Part shown: in pieces, positions 24,601-29,463 of the stretch
Position numbering within the stretch: the stretch's first letter is position 1
Layout: each line of letters begins with the position of its first letter
Assembly (NCBI RefSeq): GCF_037975245.1
Contig: NC_092568.1
Location: 9,187,001 to 9,251,000, forward strand
Direction of reading: 5' to 3'
Source of the DNA: Apostichopus japonicus
Taxonomy: Eukaryota; Echinodermata; Holothuroidea; Aspidochirotida; Stichopodidae
Length of the DNA stretch: 64,000 nt
Position numbers and translations under genes: made by a program
Notes under the pieces: generated by a model
The model's database searches: none
Seen by the model: the letters and a program-made list of their open reading frames with translations, nothing else
What the model was told of the DNA's origin: nothing

Positions 24601-27600
24601 GATCTCAATTAACATTTTTCTAAGGCTATATAGAGCATTATGGTTTTATTCATATTCGTGTCAAAATGAAAAACTTTTAAAATCTCTTGAATAAAACATG
24701 TTTATTTACAGCTGCAGTACTTTTTCTTCTCAAAAACTACAGTTTCTAAGGAACTACACCATTGATGATTTTCATACCACAAACAAGACATGAACAATGT
24801 TGAATGATTTACCATGTCCTGCTATCCATTATTTCACAAACACAAAATGACACGCTACAGCGATGTACAGATTAATGAACACTGAGTCATTCATATTCAT
24901 GTGATTGTTACTACAGCATTGGGTCATCTATAAAAATGTAAACCACTTTGGGTTTTCTCTGCAAACTTACGACTTGTGCCGATCTACGTGTCAGAGCGAT
25001 AAACTTTGCTTTTGTAATATTTATAGTATATTTTTATATATATTTTTGATGATATATTTTTGTAATATTTACGACAGATTGTACAATAACCGATGTGTTG
25101 ATCTTTGAAGATATCATCAGAGCCACATTGTACCCCAAAGCATACAGTACTTCCATAGCTGATGCACTTTAATGCCTGTGAACTTGCCCTATCTGGCATA
25201 CAGTACATGTATTAAAGGGTTTTTTAGTTATTCACATCAAACTTGGAAGGCTAATCAGGGCTACTGAAACTGCACCTTGCTTGGGGTAGAATAAAGTAAT
25301 AAATTATTCAAAAAGTGCATTACAAAAACATTGACTTGGTTGGGCCCTCAACACAATACAAGCAACTGCTTGAATTGGAAGACGACTTACCTTCTGTTTT
25401 CTCTACATTTTCTGTTCCTTGTTCTTCCGTCGATAACACTGCAAACAAAACAGAAAGAATATGAGGGATGACGTTATTCAGACAAATACAATGCAAAACA
25501 TGGCTCAAATGGAGGTTGGCAAAAACTTAACAGGTCTGTAGCTGTTAGGAATCAAAAGTATCCTGGAAGGGACAGGCAAGTTGTAGGCTGAGCATGAATT
25601 AGTAAACACAACAACATCAAGGGCAGTAATGTGAAAAGTTCTTCTGCCCAGCTGATATGTACATCAGTGGTTTCATTGGTTCTGTGACCATAAGTTGCTA
25701 ATATTTTAGGCACAAATTTATAGCCATTAACTATGCACTTGTTGTTTTGGGTTGCGTGGTGCAAAAATCTTCCTAAATAATTTTAAAAAAGTGAAAACAA
25801 TTAAAAATGATAAATCTAATGCCACATTATGCTCACATTCTGAAGGGACAGGCAAGGGACAGGCACTAATGAAGGGACAGGCACTAATGCTCACATAATT
25901 TGGTTGCATATAAACCAAATCATGTTTAAAGTATTAACTGGAAAAGTTCTCCCAAGCAAATATACAATATCCATAGTACAGTAGCTTCTGGCTAGTATCT
26001 CAACAAAACATTGGATCCAATAATGGTCACTAATCTTAGGGCTGGACAGTTCAGTTAGTACCTCAGTTAGACCCGGGGACTTCTATTCCCAAGGTCACTG
26101 GTTGAAATCCTGTTCCTAGCTAATAATAACTTTATTTTAACCTTTTTTTATAGTTCGTTCTATACGTCATGTTACTGTTCTTTGACTGCTGTAGTGTATG
26201 TAATTTTTCCAAACCAAAATGTAATCATTAGGGAAGATATTTTTATGATACAAACTGTACATGACTTTATCATAATGAGCCTTAATTCAGTGTGGAATTA
26301 CATAGTACAACTGATCTAAATATCCTGTCTTTTCAATGGATATAATTTACTCTATATTACTATCAACACTTTATATATTTTCACATCTCTCATTCCATGC
26401 CATAGGTGTGAACTGTAATACAGTGACTTATTAAGTGAAGGTACAGTAAAAACATGCATTATTAACTCTACCTGTGGGAGGTTGTTGGATAGGAGGCGGT
26501 TGTAAAACGGGAGGCTCAATCAGCTCGGGGATTTCAAGAATCTCATCATCTGCTGCATCATCTTCTTCCTCCACCTTATTTAATGTATTATGGTAGACGG
26601 TTGTTGTTTTGACCTTGTAACTGTCATCTGATGGTACCCTTTGGCCAGTCTGACCTGCCTGTTGGCCCGAGTTTGGCACGGCCTGACTTGCTGTTCCTGA
26701 CTGACCGCTACCTTGGGAAGCCTGTTGCTGATGACTCTGAACAGGTGCCTGACCTGTCTGTTGTGCAGAATTGGGAGTCGCCCGATGAACAGGCTGATGA
26801 TGGCCTTGTTGGCGCACTGGTTGGCCGGCATGGTGCAATTGTTGACCACTGGTATGCACTGCCTGTCCTCCCATTTGACCAGCAGATTGGTCAACCTGTT
26901 GACCTGCTTGGCCGACTGGTTGCCCAGCTTGGACAACCTGTTGACCTGTTTGGCCGACCGGTCGACCGGCTTGGTTGCCCTGCTGGCCTACCTGACCAGC
27001 CTGTTGTGCTGCTTGTTCAGTCTGTTGAGTAGTCTGGGTTCTCTGATGGGATGGTTGACCCGGCTGACTTTGTGCATGAAATTGCTGCCTTTGTTGCGCT
27101 TGTCTCATTTTCGCTTCACGCTGTAGTTCTTCTAAGGTTTCCTTCGGGGAGGGCTGCTTGGGTAAATTTGCTTTTAAATGAGACCCAGCAGCTGGCGCTG
27201 CTTGTCTGGCAGGCAAACTTGCTCCATTCAAATTTTGTTGATTACCAGACACCGGTAGTCTTTGGCCATTTTGATCTTGAGAGGCACCACTTCTGATCTG
27301 ATCCGCTTGGAGCACTCTTTCAGAATATGATTCGGAAACATGTTGGGCCTCGTTCACCGTGTTCTCTTCCAAAACGTGATTTTTAACGGGATCATTTGGT
27401 AAATTTAATTTTTCACTCTTAGTCCTTTCAGAAAATACTTTTTGCTCATCATCTAGCCTTTTTTGGTCTTGAGAGGACGGTAAAGATGACGATTCTGCTG
27501 TCTCTTCGCTCCTTAAATTTTGGCTTTTTAAAGCAGTTTGATGCGTATGAGTCGGTTGGTTTATAGAATGAACTTCTTTCACAATCTGCTTATGGCTACT

Positions 27601-29463: not shown

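Follow-up and report, generated by a model that had tools for sequence, protein, structure and literature searches.

The SEL1L gene in the window

The window (the whole 64,000-nucleotide stretch of DNA analysed) contains a partial SEL1L gene on the minus strand, running from 29463 to 577. Its 16 exons join to 3066 nt, or 1022 codons with 0 stops; an earlier reading of the sequence only, made without database searches (below, the sequence-only reading), had counted 1038 visible codons. The gene model was built from tblastn searches with human SEL1L combined with reading of splice sites. Residues 1-210 and 181-723 of the human query were checked. Because splice sites at the exon joins were picked to preserve the frame, phase agreement within the model is partly by construction; the ends of exon 2 were those given in the sequence-only reading. 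All 15 introns of the model are GT-AG. The last exon or exons, with the C-terminal membrane span, would fall past the left edge of the window. The exons, and the parts of the exon 2 product (the arm), are as follows; a slash in a splice motif marks the exon boundary.

29400..29463, minus strand: exon 1, Met and putative signal-peptide core; donor G/GTAAGA, phase 1
26472..27854, minus strand: exon 2, 1383 nt, phase 1 in and 1 out; luminal arm, residues about 22-482
27139..27852, minus strand: N-terminal half of the arm (residues 23-260), rich in Ser, Gln and Glu (composition of residues 24-260)
27049..27147, minus strand: arm residues 258-290, the most plausible helix; AlphaFold2 block pLDDT about 54-76, with 4 Gly/Pro among 33 residues
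26599..27138, minus strand: arm residues 261-440, 28% Gln, 13% Gly and 11% Ala; irregular 7-residue repeats
26473..26598, minus strand: arm residues 441-482, acidic, then a Pro-rich tail
24224..24287, minus strand: exon 3, where the alignment with human SEL1L starts (about 183-203), 4 of 21 residues identical, sequon kept
23560..23722, minus strand: exon 4, matching the beginning of the Sel1-repeat body
21318-21205, 19205-19124, 18113-17959 and 17177-17121, minus strand: exons 5-8, visible Sel1-repeat body
16539-16471, 15741-15601, 14675-14588 and 14064-13916, minus strand: exons 9-12, visible Sel1-repeat body
13013-12848, 12016-11942, 11473-11301 and 699-577, minus strand: exons 13-16, visible Sel1-repeat body; the gene continues past the left edge

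Residues 481-1022 were aligned to human SEL1L 181-723 with an E value of 3.4e-241 and one gap, 357 of the 542 residues being identical. Identity by exon was lowest in exon 3 and highest in exons 12 (41/50) and 15 (47/58). The Pfam Sel1 family matched the model at E 3.4e-61 in seven stretches, with the Sel1 repeats in the SEL1L arrangement, and charge-hydropathy placed this body on the folded side. Each of the five human sequons has a counterpart in the window protein. Phe668 of the mammalian protein, which contacts HRD1 and is lacking in yeast Hrd3 according to the available part of PMC10873344, is kept as F967. Judged by its sequence, the protein is an ordinary SEL1L from residue 481 on.

At residue 957 (exon at 11301-11473), the position of human Ser658 is occupied by Phe (RLAFEQQ), with R655, E659 and F668 kept. 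A figure legend in PMC10873344 gives Ser658 as conserved across species, and S658P is described as pathogenic in the part of that article available.

Candidates for exon 1 were collected between 27870 and 45000 using loose donor and hydropathy cuts. Six candidate rows, comprising five start sites, were obtained, and the exon used here is the nearest to exon 2. Its Met is the first after an in-frame stop, which lies four codons upstream, and its hydrophobic core reaches a 12-residue hydropathy of 2.02. Raising the donor cut-off to a score of 5 loses this exon (donor 4.5-4.9) and gives two others further off. The signal peptide would end in exon 2, where a c-region, GRSVSA, with a V-S-A end of signal-peptidase type was identified by eye.

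Exon 2 as a probable coding exon

The unusually large SEL1L exon described in the sequence-only reading was recovered at its coordinates, on the minus strand, with matching phases and 0 stops in frame. It follows the signal-peptide exon and precedes the first Sel1 repeats, and it has fitting splice sites, an open frame beyond chance and an ordinary SEL1L downstream. Its acceptor (CTTTAATTCTGCAG/CAG, at 27854) scored 5.64 when left out of the training set (range across the gene -1.44 to 14.31) and its donor (ACAG/GTAGAG, at 26472) 6.37 by the same leave-one-out procedure (range 2.24-10.89); these outer sites are middling for the SEL1L gene. The acceptor reads as a NAGNAG (CAGCAG), so the exon may instead begin at 27851 and be 3 nt shorter (1380 nt). 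Both neighbours fit exon 2 in phase, the signal-peptide exon upstream and the short exon 3 downstream.

The used frame has no stops over its 460 codons, and the other two sense frames have 15 and 35. None of 500 surrogates with the dinucleotide make-up of the exon reached this length, the maximum being 241 codons, and the longest open run in 30 Markov surrogates (64 kb each, generated from non-exon sequence) was 182 codons. Within the non-repetitive first half of the exon (27143-27854), each of the five other frames contains 8 to 23 stops, compared with 0 in the used frame. The openness of the repeat part, taken alone, was discarded as coding evidence because several frames are open there. Synonymous codon choice scored 0.012 in the frame of exon 2, compared with -0.030 and -0.060 for the remaining two sense frames; the three antisense frames scored -0.006, -0.002 and -0.077. 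Codon usage therefore gives the frame faint support. The GC content at third positions is 0.34 in exon 2 and 0.50 in the other SEL1L exons; the GC content of the introns is 0.36.

This closeness of third-position GC to intron GC, the weak codon-usage signal and the several open frames of the repeat part would be expected if exon 2 were a false annotation, its open frame lying in an intron, either accidental or decayed, and never translated. We consider this very improbable, given an open run nearly twice as long as the best of the 500 surrogates and a match of phase on both sides of the exon, the latter partly by construction.

Exon 2 might instead be an alternative cassette, the main isoform skipping the exon or its repeat part and having a short N-terminus, with the long form rare or tissue-specific. 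Because both ends of the exon are in phase 1, the frame survives its skipping: the G of exon 1 and the GT of exon 3 join to give ...VIGQLIYEE. Inside the exon, a donor-like CAG/GTAGGC at exon offset 863 (about 26991) scores 9.1, as high as used sites, and acceptor-like sites scoring 3.9-5.1 are found further down the repeat; alternative splicing could therefore occur within it. Against a mostly skipped exon stand the outer sites, which are middling for the gene, the frame, which is open throughout with the non-repetitive half included, and the signal-peptidase-type c-region (RSVSA, by eye), which exon 2 itself encodes. On balance the cassette appears unlikely, although less so than an untranslated frame.

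Composition and predicted structure of the arm

Glutamine makes up 17% of the exon 2 product overall. In residues 261-440, identity at a lag of 7 residues gave 43 matches compared with 22.1 in shuffles (z 5.2), and identity at a lag of 14 gave z 4.5; none of 2000 shuffles was as high in either case. The AGQxVGQ-like repeats of the sequence-only reading stand as this irregular, significant 7-residue period, whereas the strict motif occurs once. Tandem arrays of 21 and 42 nt were detected at 26883-26974 with 0% indels in both rows, and in-frame tandem duplication therefore probably gave part of the length of the arm. Three pairs of units differ at no more than 6 of 21 nt; in these, substitutions at the first, second and third codon positions numbered 2, 3 and 7, which is too few for proof of selection.

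The arm contains no Cys and no N-glycan sequon in its 460 residues. With 22 Asn present, 3.1 sequons were expected, and 3.4% of shuffles had none; this absence hints at some selection on the arm. Charge-hydropathy values of the three arm segments (-0.131, -0.176 and -0.204) all fall on the disordered side. These values and the 28% Gln of residues 261-440 agree with the disordered, Gln-rich luminal segment that had been proposed, and the acidic and proline-rich ending was likewise found, at residues 441-482.

AlphaFold2, run on the single sequence with no alignment, returned a mean pLDDT of 52 and a pTM of 0.21 for the arm, with 264 of the 460 residues under 50 and 92 at 70-90. Helices were predicted at exon residues 127-145, 155-187, 236-261, 268-309 and 311-342, those over residues 236-342 having block pLDDT values of about 54-78. 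At most the predicted helix around protein residues 258-283 is credible; the later ones were distrusted because they run through many Gly and Pro. Residues A, V, L, I, M, F and Y favour the a/d positions of a heptad register over residues 301-370, a segment chosen by the authors, and 54 of 5000 shuffles were as high.

No Pfam family or solved structure in the PDB matching exon 2 was found, and a blastn search of the window at E 0.01 gave no copy of the arm elsewhere in it. Scans for prokaryotic and viral relatives with six peptide patterns, one scan each, returned 155 and 9 matching stretches, of which 0 were confirmed.

The highest Q+N content of any 80-residue stretch of the arm is 31, of which 30 are Gln (residues 273-352). 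A rule for prion-likeness asks for at least 30 Q+N in 80 residues, and the arm exceeds it barely. Aromatic residues are nearly absent (5 of 460 in the arm, 2 of 180 in residues 261-440), the longest Q run is 3, and Asn amounts to 1.7% of residues 261-440. The description of the segment as prion-like is therefore borderline: the Q+N count favours it, and the lack of aromatics and the short Q runs do not.

An active role for the arm was weighed on the same data, namely that it is a prion-like or coiled-coil-type oligomerisation module whose Gln-rich heptads cluster SEL1L-HRD1 complexes or substrates. Gln-rich prion-like and coiled-coil proteins of the MED15 type are cytosolic or nuclear. The arm resembles such proteins in its high Gln content and heptad spacing, and the parts of PMC8386614 and PMC7997880 available describe Gln-rich prion-like proteins as often overlapping coiled coils. 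The Q+N count just above the rule, the heptad period, the a/d bias and the AlphaFold2-predicted helices are consistent with assembly. The arm differs from MED15-type proteins in being rich in Gly and Pro and nearly without aromatics or long Q runs. The 17 Gly/Pro among the 70 residues 301-370 would disfavour helices, the two aromatics, short Q runs and low Asn of residues 261-440 also argue against a module of this kind, and the AlphaFold2 helices rest on a single low-complexity sequence. We regard an assembly module as quite unlikely, somewhat more so than the cassette. The fuller proposal, in which this lineage converted a disposable N-terminal slot of SEL1L into a module of 450 residues whose Gln/Gly heptads bring the ERAD complex or its substrates together within the ER lumen, is more doubtful still; were it true, the module would be the luminal equivalent of the prion-like assembly domains of cytosolic proteins.

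Comparison with human SEL1L and Hrd3

The aligned body is preceded by 480 residues in the window protein and by 180 in human SEL1L. The excess is 300 residues, which corrects the sequence-only reading. Human residues 22-121 have a charge-hydropathy value of -0.283 and so appear more disordered than residues 29-481 of the window protein (-0.145); a disorder-like luminal N-terminus accordingly has a precedent within SEL1L. Homology of the arm to human residues 22-180 was tried and rejected, the local score of 45 comparing with a shuffle mean of 42.7 and 105 of 300 shuffles scoring at least as high.

No fibronectin II domain was found by the Pfam scan of the model or when the window was searched by tblastn with human SEL1L, in agreement with the sequence-only reading. 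A hidden fibronectin II exon was rejected on these two negative searches, and exon 2 contains no Cys. In human SEL1L the domain is encoded by exon 4 (residues 115-170), and it is reported as not conserved in invertebrates and absent from the fly and yeast Hrd3 proteins (PMC10786703, in the part available). Its absence here is therefore expected. The same part of that article reports that HEK293T cells without the domain showed largely normal ERAD, with SEL1L lowered by about 60% and HRD1 by 30%. The lack of the domain, which had been presented as notable, is thus usual among invertebrates and compatible with most ERAD in human cells, while the fall in SEL1L suggests that the slot may matter for stability.

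Human and mouse SEL1L (PDB 8kes_D and 9og0_C) share with the window protein a disorder-like luminal N-terminus, a Sel1-repeat body and, apparently, a signal peptide. They differ in that the window protein has Gln/Gly-rich heptads where the human protein has a short acidic stretch and the fibronectin II domain. Fly and yeast Hrd3 resemble the window protein in also being without fibronectin II (PMC10786703, in the part available). Yeast Hrd3 (6vjy) matched it in sequence at E 1.1e-21, but the best match spans only window residues 770-1011.

No account of an arm of this kind appeared in the titles or abstract openings returned by literature searches pairing SEL1L with echinoderms or with glutamine-rich sequence, nor, among the matches listed, in those on N-terminal extensions or disorder.

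Proposed role of the arm

Exon 2 is probably a real coding exon, the product of which would be an arm of about 450 residues, mostly disordered and occupying a permissive slot as a passive spacer. The arm probably represents a lengthening of an already variable part of the protein. In outline, the slot that follows the signal-peptide exon and ends where the Sel1-repeat exons start would tolerate changes of length and sequence, since the contacts through which SEL1L is known to work (HRD1, lectins and the substrate groove) sit in the repeats; HRD1 is bound by the last SEL1L repeats, SLR-C, according to the part of PMC4746701 available. Human residues 22-121 are disorder-like, and no sequence similarity was detectable between the arm and human residues 22-180; the slot is therefore seen as free to vary. 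In human SEL1L it holds the acidic stretch and the fibronectin II exon, and here one large exon, probably lengthened in part by in-frame duplication of 21 and 42 nt, ahead of an ordinary body. The exon would be translated, and the arm would remain disordered in the ER lumen, forming a passive, flexible spacer or brush ahead of the groove that receives substrates. It may at most tune the capture radius or the stability of SEL1L, and would have no fold of its own for catalysis or binding.

The most economical role, we infer, is that of a flexible arm that stays passive. The AlphaFold2 helices and the a/d heptad bias are features of the arm that were counted against its being fully passive. Of the interpretation given in the sequence-only reading, the identification of SEL1L, the position of the arm, its disorder and its richness in Gln were retained; the novelty of a disorder-like luminal N-terminus in SEL1L, the significance of the missing fibronectin II domain and a clear prion-like character were not.

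SEL1L is an ERAD adaptor that helps to clear misfolded proteins. If exon 2 is translated, it shows how large an addition a highly conserved adaptor of this kind can carry ahead of its substrate-facing repeats with the remainder undisturbed. The finding would favour the stretch between signal peptide and repeats as a free slot, which vertebrates fill in part with a fibronectin II module and this animal with a disordered arm. The arm, if translated, would also lend itself to studying Gln-rich low-complexity sequence in the ER lumen.

Other features of the window

Several repeats and tRNA-like features were recorded in or near the gene.

12083-12483: 21-nt minisatellite of 19 copies in the SEL1L intron that precedes exon 14; several frames are open
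21999-22558: 64-nt array (5 copies), then a CCCT array (about 63 copies), within a SEL1L intron
18274-18348, minus strand: tRNA-Cys (aca) called by ARAGORN within a SEL1L intron, possibly a tRNA-like element; we take the anticodon aca to be unusual
31611-31685, plus strand: tRNA-Val (aac) called by ARAGORN, about 2 kb upstream of SEL1L exon 1

The following were recorded outside the gene.

37866-38825, plus strand: 319-codon open frame; Pfam gave nothing at E 0.001 and only a weak match at E 0.09
45340-48258, plus strand: 972-codon open frame with RVT_1 (E 2.8e-29) and Exo_endo_phos_2 matches, a LINE-type element
48265-48455: 97-nt tandem repeat of two copies, after the LINE-type frame
54958-56574, minus strand: Cys-rich frame with hydrophobic stretches
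58941-59375, minus strand: Cys-rich frame; Ephrin_rec_like matched below threshold (E 1.5e-4; 21.9 bits, cut-off 23.1)

The two Cys-rich frames possibly belong to a single receptor-like gene.
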